A stretch of DNA of 64,000 nucleotides, taken from Litchfieldella anticariensis FP35 = DSM 16096. GTDB lineage: Bacteria; Pseudomonadota; Gammaproteobacteria; Pseudomonadales; Halomonadaceae. The notes below the pieces were generated by a model. That model was given only the letters and a program-made list of their open reading frames with translations, made no database searches and was not told where the DNA came from. Where the stretch lies: assembly GCF_000409775.1 (NCBI RefSeq), contig NZ_KE332388.1, forward strand, positions 10,552 to 74,551. The letters run 5' to 3'. Numbering within the stretch: position 1 is the stretch's first letter; the number at the start of each line of letters is the position of its first letter. The position numbers and the translations under genes were made by a program. Positions 5,831 to 22,071 of the stretch are shown here, piece by piece.

Positions 5831-6406
5831 TCAGCCCCTGCTTATCTTATACGCCGCCACGGCTAGTGCCACAGCCCTTTCCAGTTCCGTCTTGCTAAGT
5901 CCCGCCATCAACGCGGTGCGCCCCTCGCAAGCCGTGCAGATGATATCGACAGCCCGTTGCAGCACCCATTCGCGCTGTTCTTCACTGTCGGTCTGCTCGA
6001 ACAGGGATTCCATCATGCGGGCATAGACCACCGTGGGCGTCCCCGCCTGGGGGCAGGCACCTGCCTGATATGCCGGCCCTTCCTGGCGCACATTCTCAAT
6101 GGCGGCTTCCTTTACTCCAAGGTCAGGTGGTTCGGATGCTTCCGCAATATCCAGCATGCTCGGCTCCCCAGTGGCCAGCCAGCCTACCGGGACCTGCAGC
6201 GCACTCGCCAGTGCCACCAGCTTGTCGGCTCCCGGCGAAGACGAACCGCTCAAATATTTTCTTATCAGGCTCTGTGCGATGCCAGTCTTTCGCTCCAGGG
6301 AATAGGCGGACTGCCCTCCCATCGCCTGCCGGAGACGTCGGCTGAAAGCTGCGATATCCCAGGCATGAAGCTCACCGCCCACGGACTTTTCGGATTGATG
6401 TGCCAC
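5831..6406 (-). CDS. XRE-family phage-type repressor
   Basis: 191 residues from a GTG at 6406 that follows GGAG by 6 nt; a TTG at 6418 is the alternative. Residues of about 15-75 form a lambda-type helix-turn-helix (SAYSLERKTGIAQSLIRKYL, then SSPGADKLVALASALQVPVGWL). The C-terminal half has no recognisable peptidase Ser/Lys dyad and looks like an oligomerisation domain of transposable-phage repressors. It is divergent from a Ner-like gene across about 125 bp with operator-like repeats, the repressor/ner arrangement of Mu-like phages. No other Mu gene is present, so this is a remnant or domesticated switch. Confidence 0.8.
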   Translation of the reverse strand: MAHQSEKSVGGELHAWDIAAFSRRLRQAMGGQSAYSLERKTGIAQSLIRKYLSGSSSPGADKLVALASALQVPVGWLATGEPSMLDIAEASEPPDLGVKEAAIENVRQEGPAYQAGACPQAGTPTVVYARMMESLFEQTDSEEQREWVLQRAVDIICTACEGRTALMAGLSKTELERAVALAVAAYKISRG

Positions 6407-6430
6407 ATCAGACTCCAATCCGTTGATATA

Positions 6431-6783: not shown

Positions 6784-6887
6784 CAGTCCGGCAAGGTGAA
6801 GTCGCCAAGCAAGTGCTCGTCCGTACGAGCGCATATTATCCGAGTGCCGATAAGAAAAATGTCGTGGGCAGCTATCAGGAGCCCCAT

Positions 6888-7619
6888 ATGCCCCCAAGTC
6901 CCCCCAACACATTACCAATGAACGACGGCACAACGTCCCCGCCACGAGCACTCACGGAGGCCGAGCAGTTGCTCAAGGCCGAGCAGCGCCAAGTATGGGA
7001 AGTCGACCGCACCAACCTGCAGGCAAGCCATCCGTTCATCGGTTCACTGGCGGCGAAGTTGATCCTGGTGCCAGTCATCGACAGCCGGCTACCGACCATG
7101 ATGACGGATGGCCATCACCTGTTCGCCAATGCCCATTTCACCACCGGTCTGACGCCTGCGGCACGGCACTTTTTGATCGCCCATGCCATCGCGCATTGCA
7201 TCGGCGGCCATTTCCTGCCGGTCAGGAAGCGCGACATTCACCGCTGGAATCTGGCTTGCGAGCACATCGCCAACTATCTGGCGCTCCTCGAAGGCATCGC
7301 TCTGCCGACGACGGCCATACTGTACCCCTCCCAAGCCGGCAAGAACGTCATGGAGGTGTACGACTGGCTGGAGGACCATCCGTGCCTTGCCCAGGACCGC
7401 CCTGTGGACTTGCATCCCTCGGATGCGTGGCTGCCCCTGTCGCTGGCGACAGTGCAGGATCCCGACTATCGACCCGTTCCTCCACAGGCAACACCAGCCC
7501 GCCACTGGCGTGAACTGGCACTGAAAAGCGCGATCAACGCCAATTCAGGGACGACACGCATGCGCGACTACCTCGCCATGTTGACGTTCAATGAATGCGA
7601 GGCACGGAAGTGCTCATGA
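6888..7619 (+). CDS. DUF2201-like putative metallopeptidase domain protein, probably inactive
   Basis: 243 residues from the ATG at 6888, preceded by AGGAG at 6 nt; the longer frame from 6813 has no ribosome site. Residues of about 30-150 match the N-terminal metallopeptidase domain of DUF2201/VWA-like proteins (HPFIGSLAAKL, LPTMMTDGHHLFAN, RWNLACEH). The expected HEvxHxxxxH zinc motif reads HAIAHCIGGH at residues 99-108: the metal ligands remain but the catalytic Glu is Ala. The family usually also has a C-terminal VWA-like domain and an AAA+ partner; neither is seen. It follows the Ner-like gene at about 100 bp and belongs to the cassette between dnaX and ffs. Confidence 0.65.
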   Translation: MPPSPPNTLPMNDGTTSPPRALTEAEQLLKAEQRQVWEVDRTNLQASHPFIGSLAAKLILVPVIDSRLPTMMTDGHHLFANAHFTTGLTPAARHFLIAHAIAHCIGGHFLPVRKRDIHRWNLACEHIANYLALLEGIALPTTAILYPSQAGKNVMEVYDWLEDHPCLAQDRPVDLHPSDAWLPLSLATVQDPDYRPVPPQATPARHWRELALKSAINANSGTTRMRDYLAMLTFNECEARKCS

Positions 7620-7709: not shown

Positions 7710-7821
7710 GGCGGCCCCCGACAGCCACATCCCGGCACACGCATCCACCACTACCGTTGCTCCCTTCCGGGCCTGGCGGGGTTCGCGGTTTCGCGTTGCG
7801 GGAGGACCGACGAGGACCACC
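7710..7821 (-). ncRNA. ffs: signal recognition particle 4.5S RNA
   Basis: On the minus strand the segment contains the conserved SRP tip, AGGCCCGGAAGGGAGCAAC, and further 3-prime the GTGTGCCGGGATGTGGCTG strand typical of bacterial 4.5S RNA. The 5-prime TCCTCCCGCAACGC region and the pairing of the first 8 nt (GGTGGTCC) with the last ones (GGGGGCCGCC) close the long hairpin. Length is about 112 nt, as in E. coli (about 114). It binds Ffh and directs membrane proteins to the translocon. In many gammaproteobacteria it sits just upstream of dnaX; here a 2-kb cassette separates them. Ends are inferred from pairing. Confidence 0.92.
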
Positions 7822-8027
7822 ATCGCGATCTCGGCTCGGGCGTGACGCCCGGTAGCGAGACACCCGCCTGTCCATTGCTGGATCAATGGCCTGATGCGAG
7901 TGCGAGCGCACTATAACAGTGGCCTTCCGCCCTCGCAAGCCCATACCCCCGACAGGACACGAAGGTATCTACGCTATGCTTAAGTCTGTACGGTTAGTCA
8001 CTCAGTCATTGATTGGGAGGTACCACC

Positions 8028-9251
8028 ATGAAAAAGGATCCTAGCAAAGGCTATGTAGCGCTTCTCGGCTGGAGCCTGAACGCTATCGAGGCGGCTGAGA
8101 ACTTCGACCGACGTTATGTGGTGGTGGCCCCGGACTGGGCCGAAGAGTACTGTCAGAAGCACGACATCCCTTATGTGTCGTGGAATTTCGAGCGCCTGAA
8201 CGATCGCTCGATGGAGATTGCCGAAACCCTGCAGGAGATGGGCGTGAACGTTGCCATCCCGCTGTTCGAGGAAACCGTGGAGTGGGCCGGTGCCATCAAC
8301 TCCGTGTTACTCGACAATCCACGCCTGTATGGTCAGGCGCTGCTGCTGCGCGACAAGGCACTGATGAAACGTCGCGCCCAGCTCGGTGGAATTCGCGTGG
8401 GGATCTTCGAGGAGGCGCATGACAAAGGAGACGTCATCCGATTCCTCAAACGCGTCAATCAGACGCTACTCAAGCTAGATGGCGACCCCAACGACCCGAT
8501 TCACCTCAAGGCCTTCGATAAGGCCGGCTGCCTGGGTCACCGCGTGATCCGCACGCCCGACGAGGTGGATACCATTCCCGAAGAGGAATTCCCGGTGCTG
8601 ATGGAATCGCATCTGGATGGCTGGGAATTCGCCGTGGAAGCCTGGATCCATGACGGCAAGATCCGCTTCCTGAACATCTCCGAGTACGTGACCTTGGGGT
8701 ATTCGGTATTCGTACCGGCCACCCCGGAGTTGGAGCAATACCGCCCGCAGATCACCGCCCAGATCGAGAAACTGATCAAGGCCTTCGACATCGACTTCGG
8801 CTTCATTCACCCCGAATACTTCGTCACCAGCGACGGTGAGATGTATTTCGGCGAGGTCGCCTACCGGCCACCCGGCTTCAAGGTTTTCGAACTGCTCGAA
8901 CGCGCCTACGGCTTCAATGCGTATCAGGGCCTGATCCTGTCATTCGATCCCAAGACCACCGAGGAAGAGATCACGACTTTCTTCCCCAAGGAAGTGGTGG
9001 ATGCCAAGTGCCATGCCGGTTGTTTCGGGGTCTACCCGCGGCGGCGTGTGGTCAGCCGCCTGGAGATGCCCGAGGAAACCGAGGATCACCCCTACTTCGA
9101 GTCGCATGAGTTGACGCCGCCGTTGGAAGAAACCGTCACCAAGCGTACCGCCTTCGGCACCCACTGGGGGCTGGTTTACTTTACTGGCGACGATGCGCAT
9201 ACCATGCGCGACCTGTTGAAACATCAGGAAGAACTCGACTTCTATGTATAA
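8028..9251 (+). CDS. ATP-grasp superfamily protein (carboxylate-amine ligase-like)
   Basis: 407 residues from the ATG at 8028, preceded by GGGAGG at 7 nt. The N-terminal part is a Rossmann-like preATP-grasp domain (YVALLGWSLNAIEAAENFDR). DKALMKRR near residue 110 starts the ATP-grasp core, PVLMESHLDGWEFAVEAW near 195 is the nucleotide-binding strand region, and MYFGEVAYRPPG at 272-283 is the Mg/ATP-binding strand with Glu276 and Arg280. Such enzymes join a carboxylate to an amine or thiol with ATP hydrolysis. The substrate cannot be read from sequence. A 679-residue gene follows after 34 bp, so they probably form an operon. No close named relative recognised. Confidence 0.8.
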   Translation: MKKDPSKGYVALLGWSLNAIEAAENFDRRYVVVAPDWAEEYCQKHDIPYVSWNFERLNDRSMEIAETLQEMGVNVAIPLFEETVEWAGAINSVLLDNPRLYGQALLLRDKALMKRRAQLGGIRVGIFEEAHDKGDVIRFLKRVNQTLLKLDGDPNDPIHLKAFDKAGCLGHRVIRTPDEVDTIPEEEFPVLMESHLDGWEFAVEAWIHDGKIRFLNISEYVTLGYSVFVPATPELEQYRPQITAQIEKLIKAFDIDFGFIHPEYFVTSDGEMYFGEVAYRPPGFKVFELLERAYGFNAYQGLILSFDPKTTEEEITTFFPKEVVDAKCHAGCFGVYPRRRVVSRLEMPEETEDHPYFESHELTPPLEETVTKRTAFGTHWGLVYFTGDDAHTMRDLLKHQEELDFYV

Positions 9252-9285
9252 TCCCCTGTTAAGCCCAAGGGGATAAGGAGTCTGC

Positions 9286-11325
9286 GTGTCTATCGAAGAC
9301 GGCCAACATGACAACCAGGACAGCAAGCTGGAGATGCTGCTGTCCAAGCTGGACGAGGCCACTGAGATCCTCGCGCAAGCTCGGGATTTCGCCAAACCGC
9401 TCAAGGTCCGCCGGGTATTGGATACCGCCCGGCGCGTTCTGATGCAGGACGGCGGTGCCGCCGCCCTGCAAGAACGTGTCGAGCCCCTGGAAACGGCAGG
9501 CATCTTCCAAGGGTCCGATTGGGCCTTTCCCCAGATCCTGATTCCTTCGCTGACCACCCACTCGCTGAAGAGCGCCGACGCCGATACCGTGGTGCTCGAA
9601 GCCCTGAGCGAGCTGCGCATGCTGGCAGTGGCCAATGGCGACTATCGTCATCCGCTGATCTCCGCCGAGCAGGCCCATCACTATCTGACCCAGGTGTTGG
9701 CGATCAACCTGGAGTTGCTGTTCATGGCACCCAGCGAGGCCGAGCGTGAGACACAGGGCCGCCTGGCTCAGGTGCCTCGCGCCCTGTTCAAGCATCTGGC
9801 CGAGGGGATCGGTTACGAGCACGTTATCGATCGGCTGATCGACGAGATCTGGCGCATCCTGCAGCAGCGCCCGATCCAGGTCGAACCGGTCAAGCAGATG
9901 ATCACCCAGATCGCCATCTGCCGGGCCAACCCGGATATGGACCTCGGTGCTAGCGGCCAAGGAGCCGATCGCCTGATCAGTAGCCTGTATGGCGCTACCC
10001 AGGCCTCACGCGAAGATCCTGGCGTGGACGTCTACCGCGAACGCCTGGAGTCAATGGATACCGGTGCCCTGCAGTACGAGGCCACCGGCTTTGCCCGCGC
10101 CATGCACGATACCGGCCTGGTATCGCCCTACCATGCCGTGCTGCTACGGTATCTGCTCGACCACGGTGACCACCTGCTTTCCGAGGCTCTTGGCCTGTCG
10201 AGCACCGGGCGTGACTGCCTGCTGTGCTATCGGCAACTGGCTCAGGCGCTGATCGAGGAAGCGGTGCATCCAGCCTCGGCGCAGGCTGTCTATGGCCTGG
10301 CACTGATGCTCGAGCGTGGCATTCTCTATCAACCGCCGGTCGCCCCGGCGCTATGGCGCCAAGTCGCCTTGCCGCTGTCGGAGTGGTCGGAGCTACGCCT
10401 GCGTCTGGCCTATGGCGATGCGGTATCGCCCCGAAGCAGACTGCTGGAAGGAGTGTTGTGCATGCTCGGCCTGCCGCTGGGCGTGGGTCAGGGCAACAAC
10501 CCCACCTGCCAGTCGGCACGTGCCTTGTCGATGTGGGCCTACAACGACCCCGACTATCTGCTGCAGATGGTGGCCTGGGCCGCCCGCGACGACGAGATCA
10601 TCATGCACTTCGAGGGAATGCCGCTCTCCTCGATGGCCAGTCTTTCCGGGGTTTCCAAGGAACTGCCCATGGACCTCGACCCGGTATCGCTGCTGGTGGT
10701 TCCGCATCTTGACCGCATCTACGCCGAGATGGGCCGTCGCTGCATTGGCCGCGAGGGTGATCCGCATCGCTGGGTCAATCCGGAATTTCACGGCTGGTGG
10801 TCCGGGCGCGGTTTTCGCATCAACGTCGATGTGGCGACCGGTCAGCTCGAGTCGCTCGATGATTTCCTGCGTCACTTCTACGCCAGCTACCACCCCTTTT
10901 ACAACGGCAACCAGCCATTGATTCACCCTCAGCCAGCGGGCATTGCGGTGACCGACAGTGCCGCCCGCTTCATTGGCTGGCACGCCATTACCCTGCTACG
11001 TGTGACACTCGACCCCAGCGACGAAATGCGTGTCTATTTCTACAACCCTAACAACGACAGCGGCCAGGACTGGGGGGATGGCGTCAAGGTCAGTACCGCC
11101 GGTAACGGTGAACGCTTCGGCGAAGCCTCGTTACCTTTCGAGCAGTTCGCCTCACGGCTGTATATCTTCCACCACGATCCGCTGGAAAGCGGTGAACTGG
11201 CCAACGTGACTCAAGAGGAACTCGACCGGGTGATCGGCTACGTTCATCGTAGTTGGGGAGCCGATCGGGTGCCCCCCACCGACCTCCAGGCCAACCCTGG
11301 TCCTGGGAACGATACGCAGCGCTGA
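9286..11325 (+). CDS. uncharacterised protein with papain-like Cys/His/Asn pattern
   Basis: 679 residues from a GTG with AAGGAG 5 nt upstream. I do not recognise a named family. The first 400 residues are helix-rich with no signal peptide. The C-terminal part has a plausible cysteine-hydrolase arrangement: Gln402 and Cys408 in GQGNNPTCQSARALSMW, His566 in FIGWHAITLLRV, and Asn/Asp in YNPNNDSG at 586-593, with aromatic strands between them. This order (Gln-Cys, His, Asn/Asp) is that of papain-like peptidases and amidases; assigning catalysis is inference. It lies 34 bp after the ATP-grasp gene, so a ligase/hydrolase pair acting on one amide-linked product is possible. Probably cytoplasmic. Confidence 0.6.
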   Translation: MSIEDGQHDNQDSKLEMLLSKLDEATEILAQARDFAKPLKVRRVLDTARRVLMQDGGAAALQERVEPLETAGIFQGSDWAFPQILIPSLTTHSLKSADADTVVLEALSELRMLAVANGDYRHPLISAEQAHHYLTQVLAINLELLFMAPSEAERETQGRLAQVPRALFKHLAEGIGYEHVIDRLIDEIWRILQQRPIQVEPVKQMITQIAICRANPDMDLGASGQGADRLISSLYGATQASREDPGVDVYRERLESMDTGALQYEATGFARAMHDTGLVSPYHAVLLRYLLDHGDHLLSEALGLSSTGRDCLLCYRQLAQALIEEAVHPASAQAVYGLALMLERGILYQPPVAPALWRQVALPLSEWSELRLRLAYGDAVSPRSRLLEGVLCMLGLPLGVGQGNNPTCQSARALSMWAYNDPDYLLQMVAWAARDDEIIMHFEGMPLSSMASLSGVSKELPMDLDPVSLLVVPHLDRIYAEMGRRCIGREGDPHRWVNPEFHGWWSGRGFRINVDVATGQLESLDDFLRHFYASYHPFYNGNQPLIHPQPAGIAVTDSAARFIGWHAITLLRVTLDPSDEMRVYFYNPNNDSGQDWGDGVKVSTAGNGERFGEASLPFEQFASRLYIFHHDPLESGELANVTQEELDRVIGYVHRSWGADRVPPTDLQANPGPGNDTQR

Positions 11326-19562: not shown

Positions 19563-20774
19563 CTACAAAGCCGATCCGCAAGCCACGCCCGAGGCCCAGG
19601 CCCACTGGAAGTTGTAGCCGCCAAGTTCGCCAGTGACGTCGAGCACTTCGCCGATGAAACGCAATTGCGGTAGGCCATTGACTTCAAAGGTCTTCGATGA
19701 GATCGCGCGGGTATCGACTCCACCCATGGTGACTTCAGCGGTGCGCCAGCCTTCGGTGCCAGCGGGCTTGATGCACCATTGGTTGAGGCGTAGCTGCCAT
19801 TCATCGAGGCGGGCATTGGAAAGTTCGGCCAGCGGCGGATCCTCGCCGTACCACTCACCCAGTGACTGGGCCAAGCGCTTGGGTAAGTGCTCACTCAGCC
19901 AGGTGGAGAGCTTGCGCTTCGGGGTTTCACGACGTGCCACCGACAAGGCATCGAAAGCCTCGACCCCAGGCAGCAGATCGATCTCGAGTTCATCGCCGGG
20001 CTGCCAATAACTGGAAATCTGCAGCATCCCGGGGCCGGACAGCCCCCGGTGAGTGAACAGCAAGGGTTCGCGATAGCGACGATCACGGCCCGGTCCCTTG
20101 CGCTCTCCATCATGCAGGCTGCTCACGGCGATATCACAGGCGACTCCGGCCAGATCCGCGACTCGCGCCTTCCAGTGCGAGGTCAGGGTAAACGGCACCA
20201 AGGCCGCACGCGTCTCGGTAACCTCTAGCCCGAACTGGCGGGCAATGTCGTAGCCAAACGCCGTGGCTCCCATGGTCGGAATCGATAGCCCGCCTGTCGC
20301 CACCACCACGCTACCCGTCTCGATACGGCCCCGCGAGGTGTGTAAGCGCATACCTTCTCCATGACGCTCGAGCGACTCGACCGTGGTCCGAAGGCTGATC
20401 TCGACGCCGGCCCAGTCGCACTCGGTCAGCAGCATGGCAACGATGTCCTTGGCCGATTCGGCACAGAACAACTGCCCGGGCGCTTTCTCCACGAACTCGA
20501 TGCCGTGTCGTTCAACCAATTCGACGAAATGCTCCGGACGGTAACGCTTGAGTGCCGAGATACAGAACGCTGGGTTGGCGGAGAAGAAATTGGACGGCGT
20601 GGTGTTGAGATTGGTGAAGTTACAACGCCCGCCACCGGACATCAGAATCTTCTTGCCAGCCTTGTTGGCATGGTCGAGCACCAGCACGCGCCGACCGGCA
20701 TAACCGGCCGTCAGCGCGCACATCAGCCCGGCGGCACCGGCACCGATCACGACCACATCGGGTTGGGGCGTCAT
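19563..20774 (-). CDS. YhiN/HI0933-family FAD-dependent oxidoreductase
   Basis: 403 residues. The N-terminal dinucleotide-binding motif VVIGAGAAGLMCAL at residues 8-21 and the family signature AGKKILMSGGGRCNFTNL near 40 are clear, as is VVATGGLSIPTMGATAFGYD near 160, typical of the HI0933/BaiN-like flavoproteins. The C-terminal MGGVDTRAISSKT and GELGGYNFQWAWASG close the FAD domain. Reaction unknown in vivo. Normal length. Transcribed alone; 156 bp separate it from CHAD. Confidence 0.9.
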   Translation of the reverse strand: MTPQPDVVVIGAGAAGLMCALTAGYAGRRVLVLDHANKAGKKILMSGGGRCNFTNLNTTPSNFFSANPAFCISALKRYRPEHFVELVERHGIEFVEKAPGQLFCAESAKDIVAMLLTECDWAGVEISLRTTVESLERHGEGMRLHTSRGRIETGSVVVATGGLSIPTMGATAFGYDIARQFGLEVTETRAALVPFTLTSHWKARVADLAGVACDIAVSSLHDGERKGPGRDRRYREPLLFTHRGLSGPGMLQISSYWQPGDELEIDLLPGVEAFDALSVARRETPKRKLSTWLSEHLPKRLAQSLGEWYGEDPPLAELSNARLDEWQLRLNQWCIKPAGTEGWRTAEVTMGGVDTRAISSKTFEVNGLPQLRFIGEVLDVTGELGGYNFQWAWASGVACGSAL

Positions 20775-21162
20775 AGAACATCACCACTGGAATGGGAATC
20801 GTCGCAAAGGGCGGTGATTCTACCAGAGCGACGACTTACCGCCAGCCGCTTGGGTGACGCCTCTCAGGAATCCCATTGAAAGCACTCTCGTACTATTGCC
20901 ATTGGCAAAAGTAACGTTAGCTACTACCCTTTCAGTAACTTATTGTAAAAAACAATAGGAAAAGTAGGGAAACTCGCTACATGCTTTTGCATGCTGGACA
21001 TCGTGAAGAAAAGACTATTTCGCTGGTCTGCCAATACAAGAACGACTAAACTTAACTCAAAGTAACACAAGATTACAAAAAGAACCAATCAGCAAAAAGA
21101 AAAAAATCGAAGAATCTGAACACGTTGTCATTGCGACATCTAGGGAACGCGGGGGATCTTCC
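20775..21162. other. AT-rich intergenic region upstream of the AraC regulator
   Basis: From about 20900 the 388-bp gap becomes clearly AT-richer than both flanks, with A-runs and a small dyad TATTGT-AAAAA-ACAATA near 20942. It must contain the divergent promoters of the flavoprotein and the AraC-type regulator. I see no gene or RNA. The base change suggests acquired DNA or a silenced promoter. Confidence 0.4.
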
Positions 21163-22071
21163 ATGGTGAAGACTCATGACTATGTGCTTGTCGTGATCCG
21201 GAATCTTCAGGAAACATTTGATGACGGTTATCTAAAGACCCTGCGACAGCATGGTTATCGAATTGAGCTTGTCCCGGCGGGACAGGACCCGATTCCGACC
21301 ATGGAGGCCCGCCCCCCCATCGCTGCCTGCTTCCAGTACGACTACCCCGACCTGCAAGGCCTGGCGGACCTGCGTGAGGCCAAAAAGCGCGTCTCCTCGG
21401 TTCCGCTGCTGATGATCACCCAGGCGCATTCGGAGCACCTGGCCGTGTGGGCCTTTCGTTCCCGGGTGTGGGACTACTTCGTGCAACCCATCGACATGCC
21501 GCGCCTGCTGGAAGTGTTTGCCAGCCTGCGCAGCGTAAGGCTACCCGGAAGTGCGAGCGTGGCTTCGAACATGGACCCGGATTCGAGAAAGGCGCTGGAT
21601 GTCCAGAATGCCATCCCCCCCGAGGCACGCTTGCGCTGTTCCGGCCCCGGCGGCGAACAAGCGCAGCTCGACCGCGCGATGTCTTTCCTCGACAAGAACC
21701 TGCACCGCAAGATCGCGCAGGCGGAAGTGGCGGAAAGTTGCGGCTTGAGTACCTTTCAGTTCAGCCGCCTGTTCAAGCGCCTGACCGGCGTCACCTTCCA
21801 GGAATACCTGCTGCATCGGCGCATTGCCGAAGCCATGCGCCTGCTCGCCAACCCCAAGGTATCGATCACCGATGTCTGCTTTACCGTCGGATTTCGTGAC
21901 CTTTCCTATTTCACGCGGGTCTTCCAGCGCTATGTCGGCCAACCCCCTTCCCGTTATCGCTTGAGCCTGGTCGACAAGCAGCAGGAACCGCAACCGCATC
22001 AGCACAAGATCGAGTTCGACCCCCTGGCGGCAACAGCGGCCCAGTTATCGTTAGCTCCGCTCAAGAGCTGA
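21163..22071 (+). CDS. AraC-family regulator with receiver-like N-terminus
   Basis: 302 residues. Residues 1-130 look like a degenerate response-regulator receiver (YVLVVIRNLQE, then SSVPLLMITQAHSEHLAV and RVWDYFVQPIDMPRLLEVF, where the last resembles the receiver KP-loop region), but no phospho-accepting Asp in the usual acidic context is visible. The C-terminal 100 residues are a standard AraC double HTH (HRKIAQAEVAESCGLSTFQF and ISDVCFTVGFRD-like repeat, YVGQPPSRYRL end). It lies at the 3-prime end of the tad locus, facing it. A role in controlling the tad genes is inferred from position only. Confidence 0.85.
   Translation: MVKTHDYVLVVIRNLQETFDDGYLKTLRQHGYRIELVPAGQDPIPTMEARPPIAACFQYDYPDLQGLADLREAKKRVSSVPLLMITQAHSEHLAVWAFRSRVWDYFVQPIDMPRLLEVFASLRSVRLPGSASVASNMDPDSRKALDVQNAIPPEARLRCSGPGGEQAQLDRAMSFLDKNLHRKIAQAEVAESCGLSTFQFSRLFKRLTGVTFQEYLLHRRIAEAMRLLANPKVSITDVCFTVGFRDLSYFTRVFQRYVGQPPSRYRLSLVDKQQEPQPHQHKIEFDPLAATAAQLSLAPLKS

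Follow-up and report, generated by a model that had tools for sequence, protein, structure and literature searches.

What do two adjacent genes do together when one encodes an apparent ATP-grasp ligase and the other a candidate cysteine hydrolase? The question is raised by a gene pair of Litchfieldella anticariensis FP35 (= DSM 16096; Halomonadaceae), which lies in a stretch of 64,000 nucleotides (the window; assembly GCF_000409775.1, contig NZ_KE332388.1, positions 10,552 to 74,551 of the forward strand). Coordinates below are those of the window unless a locus is named. The first gene (8028-9251, + strand) encodes an ATP-grasp protein of 407 residues, here called P1, and the second (9286-11325, + strand, GTG start) a protein of 679 residues, P2. 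Linkage and co-inheritance support the view that P1 and P2 form one functional unit, the C-terminal domain of P2 likely has a papain-like fold, and an enzyme of the histone deacetylase family is a likely third member. Our leading proposal, which we hold tentatively and at a little less than an even chance, is that P1/P2 may ligate amides reversibly in the manner of RimK/RimB but with an eraser of another type; the reversal and the substrate are inferred.

Linkage and co-inheritance of P1 and P2

The two open reading frames (ORFs) are separated by 34 bp, and each is preceded by a Shine-Dalgarno-like sequence read by eye, GGGAGG (8015-8020, +) ahead of P1 and AAGGAG (9275-9280, +), inside the gap, ahead of P2. 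The closely spaced genes and good ribosome sites described in the initial annotation are thus present, and its expectation that the two genes would be conserved as neighbors was borne out. The 80 closest P2 loci, the top-scoring among at least 584 P2 relatives in a scan of one genome collection, lean toward close relatives of the window; an intact P1 lies directly upstream of P2, on the same strand, in 72 of them. Four further loci hold a partial P1, one cut by a contig end and three reduced to a 3' piece. In another class, an intact P1 directly precedes P2 in all three carriers detected among 240 genomes searched.

The genes also share their carriers, which likewise agrees with the earlier suggestion that they belong together. 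In a survey of 58 related genomes, P2 was found in 23, and each of these also gave a strong P1 match. The other 35 held no P1 except for two weak partial matches, in G018 (E value, 8.5e-5) and G026 (E 4.4e-6, partial), which were not counted as P1. Within the genus Marinobacter, 53 of 61 genomes carry P2 and the same 53 carry P1. Joined, the surveys cover 118 genomes (one is common to both), 75 with both genes and 43 with neither. Fisher values for co-occurrence were 1e-16 (relatives) and 3e-10 (Marinobacter) but overstate the case, as related genomes are not independent. Some surveyed genomes are incomplete (e.g., G733 at 62%), and broken genes occur among the carriers (P1 in G009; P2 in pieces in G755, with others also broken).

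In Marinobacter, 103 near-full-length P2 copies (1 to 5 per genome) stand against 73 P1 copies (1 to 3 per genome), and P1 lies within 1 kb of P2 in tandem for 42 of the 103 copies and on the opposite strand for 10. P1 is also far more conserved than P2, at a mean column identity of 84% (alignment A2) versus 64% (A1), in alignments that hold different sequences. Both contrasts are consistent with an arrangement in which P1 modifies P2, or in which P2 is a protease with protein targets of its own whose activity P1 sets, one or two ligases serving several P2 paralogues. However, the conservation gap has other explanations, and we regard such an arrangement as distinctly unlikely.

A P1 paralogue, about 77 to 78% identical, occurs at sites without an adjacent P2 (L172, L173, and L080 at 20424-21638). 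Broken or fragmentary P2 genes lie beside an intact P1 paralogue in Marinobacter (L274, L275, G722, G740, and G726). A P2 paralogue is found near a FabH-like protein of 636 residues in L164 (3265-11868), L120, L229, and L241; a GCS2-like ligase gene is also near it in L164, L120, and L241, and an AstE/AspA-like gene in L164. Several neighbors were considered as further parts of the system and rejected, not being conserved with the pair across genera: the dnaX, recR, tlyA, and mscK-like genes in Halomonas and, at other loci, GCS2-like and AstE-like genes, DUF2959, and BCCT transporters.

A papain-like domain predicted in P2

The initial annotation had read a papain-like order of Gln, Cys, His, and Asn in P2, and conservation among homologues upholds it. 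All 37 sequences compared, namely, the window protein and 36 homologues (42 to 92% identical), have Gln402, Cys408, His566, Asn587, Asn589, and Asp591; the homologues come from 39 loci, less L001 and L002, which are the window gene itself, and the fragment L031. Loss of Cys408 or His566 among homologues had been named beforehand as grounds for abandoning the assignment; both residues are conserved throughout. Cys408 is the sole invariant residue among the 6 cysteines of P2, and His566 is one of 3 invariant histidines among 23. Invariant positions number 101 of 679, 68 of them among the 285 of residues 380 to 664; at the latter rate (68/285), six random positions of the domain would all be invariant with a chance of about 1.6e-4. 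The Gln, Cys, His, and Asn are also invariant in all 82 rows of an alignment of the domain. A further alignment (A3) kept 45 of 79 rows, after removal of L096 (internal stop) and of 34 rows at ≥90% identity.

The predicted oxyanion Gln402 and nucleophile Cys408 bound the stretch QGNNPTC (codons at 10489-10509, +), in which Gln402, Gly403, Pro406, Thr407, and Cys408 are invariant in 37/37. The codon of the predicted catalytic His566 lies at 10981-10983 (+). Asn587, the predicted third catalytic residue, opens the stretch NPNND (Asn587 to Asp591; 11044-11058, +), of which Asn587, Pro588, Asn589, and Asp591 are invariant in the same 37 sequences. By eye, the motif Q-G-x-x-x-x-C, H-A, N, W-G-x-G resembles the papain-type sites of bacterial C1 domains.

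Structure prediction points the same way. The full-length model of P2 (predicted local distance difference test [pLDDT], 71; predicted template modeling score [pTM], 0.44) has an all-helical N-terminal part (about residues 1 to 395). The modeled papain-like domain (residues 362 to 665; 10369-11280, +) was also predicted by itself from 82 rows (m4c06e43d5865; pLDDT 74.5, pTM 0.68). In this domain model, Cys408 stands directly before a helix, His566 within a strand, and Asn587 directly after the next strand, and the three residues are placed as in the papain fold. A Foldseek search with the domain model was headed by m-calpain (E 3.7e-3), and 47 of its 50 rows were papain-fold structures, the other three being MazF. 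With VIA-align, 49 of 50 rows were of the papain fold, the best having a Z score of 6.5 and a root mean square deviation of 5.0 over 212 residues; Z scores up to this value are in the range that the tool calls common, and its rows were preselected by Foldseek. Papain-fold rows of both searches were judged from structure titles. The uniformity of this model-based list carries more weight with us than the Z score of 6.5, which alone would not be convincing. The neighbors include calpains, bleomycin hydrolase, staphopain, cathepsins, and Pd_dinase. The full-length model gave no significant Foldseek row; staphopain C, staphopain, a P. distasonis cysteine protease, and fibroinase stood at ranks 15, 30, 40, and 48 (E > 1), and two of its VIA rows (6w4n and 3pw3; Z 5.3) map to residues 404 to 637. 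VIA aligned the helical N-terminal part with armadillo/HEAT-like proteins and the N-oxygenase HrmI, but for helical parts the best Z reached, 6.7, is at noise level; we therefore claim no fold for it.

Sequence comparison did not place P2 in a named family. No Pfam, NCBIfam, or PADLOC family matched P2 at E up to 1, and a PDB sequence search yielded no significant match (best E 0.11 and 0.27). Comparison by hhalign with 13 bacterial Peptidase_C1 (PF00112) domains gave a probability of 0.4% (E 0.17), a failure that is weak evidence either way because the P2 profile is of low diversity (effective number of sequences [Neff], 2.0). Profile similarity to Peptidase_C1 was thus seen neither in Pfam nor by hhalign. 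Since the model and the fold list agree while the profile comparison found nothing, a papain-like fold is likely for the C-terminal domain, whereas membership in a named family is not supported. The Cys-His spacing of calpain is 157, close to the 158 of P2. P2 further resembles the clan CA enzymes (calpain, staphopain, bleomycin hydrolase, and Pd_dinase) in the order Gln-Cys (6 apart)-His-Asn and in the placement of helix and strands, but it differs from them in its N-terminal part, in the lack of a detectable sequence relation to Peptidase_C1, and in the lack of a Pfam C1/C2 match.

Among the fold neighbors returned by VIA-align is the phytochelatin-synthase-like Alr0975. P2 might accordingly be a transferase, passing an acyl group over its cysteine as phytochelatin synthase does, with P1 making the acceptor or donor and both enzymes working along one pathway, in the same direction, toward a peptide or osmolyte. 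The constant joint presence of P1 and P2 in both surveys would fit such a pathway; however, calpains, bleomycin hydrolase, staphopain, and cathepsins rank equally high or higher, with differences in Z within ties, and we rate this possibility as unlikely.

Similarity of P1 to ATP-grasp ligases

The ATP-grasp motif noted earlier in P1 holds up in an 11-row alignment. Glu276 and Arg280, the ends of an E-x-A-x-R stretch (8853-8867, +), are invariant in 11/11 rows together with Glu263, and the three match the conserved acidic/Arg residues of the metal/phosphate site. P1 matched Pfam ATP-grasp_4 (PF13535) at E 2.2e-5 and 24.5 bits, under the 27-bit cut-off; all 11 aligned members matched it at E up to 1 (best E 2.3e-6). 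The NCBIfam match to PRK07206 reached 25.5 bits, where the cut-off is far higher (302). P1 shares with the L-amino acid ligases BL00235 (3vot) and 4wd3 a local profile match of about 120 residues that includes the acidic/Arg metal-site region, but this match is weak (E 7e-4 and 2e-3) and there is none at the family level.

A deacetylase as a likely third member

At a few loci the pair is joined by a third gene, whose product has a Hist_deacetyl domain (PF00850; 311 bits in L159 and 313 bits in L273; cut-off, 27.9). Orthologues were counted at ≥460 bits (67 to 75% identity to the L159 protein), and distant members of this widespread family were not counted. By this measure, the deacetylase occurs in 16 of the 23 P2 carriers and 0 of the 35 other genomes among the relatives (with fragments in two more carriers), in 40 of 53 carriers versus 0 of 8 others in Marinobacter, and, for both surveys joined, in 55 of 75 carriers versus 0 of 43 noncarriers. 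It lies directly beside P2 in L159, in the order P1-P2-deacetylase, and in L087, where the same order is cut. The order in L129 is P2-deacetylase-P1; in L168, P1 and P2 are divergent and the deacetylase faces P2. In the Marinobacter genomes G712, G737, G747, and G756, it lies within 45 to 133 bp of a P1 paralogue. This linkage spans four families (f170, f186, f193, and f20) plus L087, a metagenome-assembled genome of unknown family, but it is the exception, being seen at a single locus among the closest 80 and in 4 of the 61 Marinobacter genomes. In the window's own genome, the orthologue (72% identity) is on another contig, and it was missing from the initial annotation because the gene lies elsewhere in the genome. 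We consider an enzyme of this family a likely third member alongside P1/P2.

In three of the Marinobacter clusters, the deacetylase gene directly adjoins a gene for a GNAT acetyltransferase. An Xre-like antitoxin and RES-domain gene pair (4060-5153 of L273) lies beside one GNAT/deacetylase/P1-paralogue cluster. In the window's genome, the region around the deacetylase gene (L174) is flanked by two near-identical ORFs for membrane proteins of 247 residues (627-1370 and 10417-11160) and also holds, by eye, an Hsp20-like ORF and two FNR-like ORFs.

The partnership with a histone-deacetylase-family enzyme raises the possibility of polyamine conjugation. P1 would conjugate a polyamine with an amino acid or peptide, P2 would be the corresponding amidase, and the deacetylase would free polyamines from their acetyl form; P1/P2 would then be functionally analogous to glutathionylspermidine synthetase/amidase, with the two activities on separate proteins. 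In Marinobacter L166 and L234, a P2 paralogue begins 3 bp after a potI-like gene at the end of a potFGHI-like operon; in L227 one lies near puuA/puuC-like genes, and by eye the same genes are near P2 paralogues in L163, L218, L223, L224, and L230. The best NCBIfam matches of these neighbors are PotF, PotG, PotH, PotI, and PuuC, and in Saccharospirillum (L108) an ABC operon with best matches including PotB, PotC, and PotD precedes P1. However, all of the Pot/Puu matches are below their cut-offs, the Marinobacter cases may represent one ancestral insertion, most other P2 copies lie elsewhere, and placement near a polyamine operon may be due to chance; we therefore retain the polyamine link as a rival and not as a result. 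The deacetylase is, moreover, more similar to HDAC6/HDAH than to the acetylpolyamine amidohydrolase 3men. Polyamine conjugation seems to us a minority possibility, on a par with the transferase.

A eukaryotic precedent for combining such activities is the tubulin code, with tubulin tyrosine ligase, vasohibin, and HDAC6. A bacterial code of this sort might be written and erased on a lysine or a protein tail: P1 would add an amino acid or similar group and P2 would remove it, while the GNAT/deacetylase pair would set the acetylation of the same or a neighboring site. We think this very unlikely. If true, bacteria would have a counterpart of the eukaryotic code, and the several P2 paralogues per genome would be different erasers for one writer.

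A candidate module for reversible amide ligation

Ligases that are paired with a peptidase of opposing or maturing function are already known, and P1/P2 would be of this kind. ATP-grasp ligases form an acyl phosphate and then an amide. In the reversible module that we favor, P1 would activate a carboxylate with ATP via an acyl phosphate and join it to an amine. P2 would form a thioester at Cys408, with His566 as the base, Asn587 orienting the histidine, and Gln402 in the oxyanion hole, and would remove or remodel the group that P1 had joined. The pair would in this way set the level of a modification, as RimK/RimB do on RpsF, and the deacetylase might supply or expose the amine, which would belong to the side chain of a lysine or to an N-acetylpolyamine. 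This proposal is built on computed results, namely, the papain-like model, the invariant catalytic pattern, the ATP-grasp similarity, the strict co-occurrence of P1 and P2, and a deacetylase that often co-occurs with them and is repeatedly linked; that P2 acts on the P1 product, in which direction each step runs, and what the substrate is are inferred.

The closest parallels are the RimK/RimB system and the rlo operon, in which, as in P1/P2, a bacterial ATP-grasp ligase is encoded together with a protease. According to one account, RimK adds glutamates to the ribosomal protein RpsF and the protease RimB removes them, and RimB and RloA are aspartic, retropepsin-like proteases (PMC12239564). In contrast, P2 is predicted to be a cysteine enzyme with a papain-like model, and P1 matches ATP-grasp_4 weakly; in Pfam and NCBIfam, with E up to 1, no RimK model and no family of aspartic proteases was matched by either protein. 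Because P2 differs in protease class, P1/P2 is not a RimK/RimB system.

Glutathionylspermidine synthetase/amidase, which has an ATP-grasp part, likewise pairs an ATP-made amide with a papain-like cysteine amidase that cuts it, as is predicted for P2, but it is a fused protein, whereas P1 and P2 are two genes. It is mentioned elsewhere as a CHAP protein (PMC10318531). CHAP and GSP_synth did not match P1 or P2 in Pfam at E up to 1. Operons in which ATP-grasp or other ligases are combined with papain-like, GNAT, and other enzymes are described in the accessible portion of an account of class I aminoacyl-tRNA synthetase (AAtRS)-like peptide systems, a portion in which the P1/P2 pair with a deacetylase is not described (PMC2922099). 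The literature titles and abstract openings searched, with subscription papers mostly beyond reach, held no description of the P1/P2 pair, the P2 family, or the deacetylase link. ATP-grasp amidoligase operons, which reportedly show similar combinations, are said to have been surveyed by Iyer and colleagues in 2009.

Several observations count against the proposed module. At 4 of the 80 closest loci P1 does not adjoin P2, in L085, L088, and L102 no more than a 3' remnant of P1 stands upstream of an intact P2, and 51 of the 103 near-full-length Marinobacter P2 copies lack a P1 within 1 kb. The co-occurrence counts take no account of genome relatedness, and 20 of the 75 carriers are without the deacetylase at ≥460 bits. 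As for P2 itself, the active-site loop (residues 398 to 409) has a pLDDT below 50 in both the full-length and the domain models, no Foldseek row for the domain model reached E 1e-3, and the common range of the VIA-align scores and the hhalign result given above belong here as well.

Distribution and genomic surroundings

P2 is patchily distributed, with carriers making up 8 of 274 genomes in an even sample of the class and 11 of 398 in a sample of the phylum, and many of the relatives in the genome collection are in marine and salt-loving Gammaproteobacteria. This patchiness, the varying genomic sites, the degraded copies, and the RES-Xre pair beside one cluster (L273) would suit a selfish or conflict pair, such as an addiction or effector-immunity system, that spreads between genomes. 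Against this, conservation has been long-lasting in Halomonadaceae synteny, and mobile elements yielded little: among 72,556 plasmid records, a single one, a 1.8-Mb Halomonas replicon, has a P2 relative, phage records have none, and none is encoded in 156 candidate stretches from IMG/VR. We regard a selfish pair as the least likely of the explanations weighed here. A phage origin was rejected on the phage and IMG/VR results, and an anti-phage defense system was rejected since neither P1 nor P2 matched PADLOC at E up to 1, a result that also speaks against a conflict pair.

Just upstream of P1 in the window is a gene for the small signal recognition particle (SRP) RNA (7716-7812, - strand; Rfam RF00169, 74.7 bits). 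Between dnaX and this gene lie a helix-turn-helix repressor-like ORF (5831-6418, -) and an ORF that by eye is ImmA/IrrE-type peptidase-like (6813-7619, +); the two are perhaps a small mobile remnant.

Implications

Overall, the P2 family, which has no Pfam or NCBIfam entry, gains a predicted fold, predicted catalytic residues, a co-inherited partner, and a likely third member. If the P1/P2 pair does set a reversible modification, bacteria would have, in addition to RimK/RimB, another means of writing and erasing amide tags.

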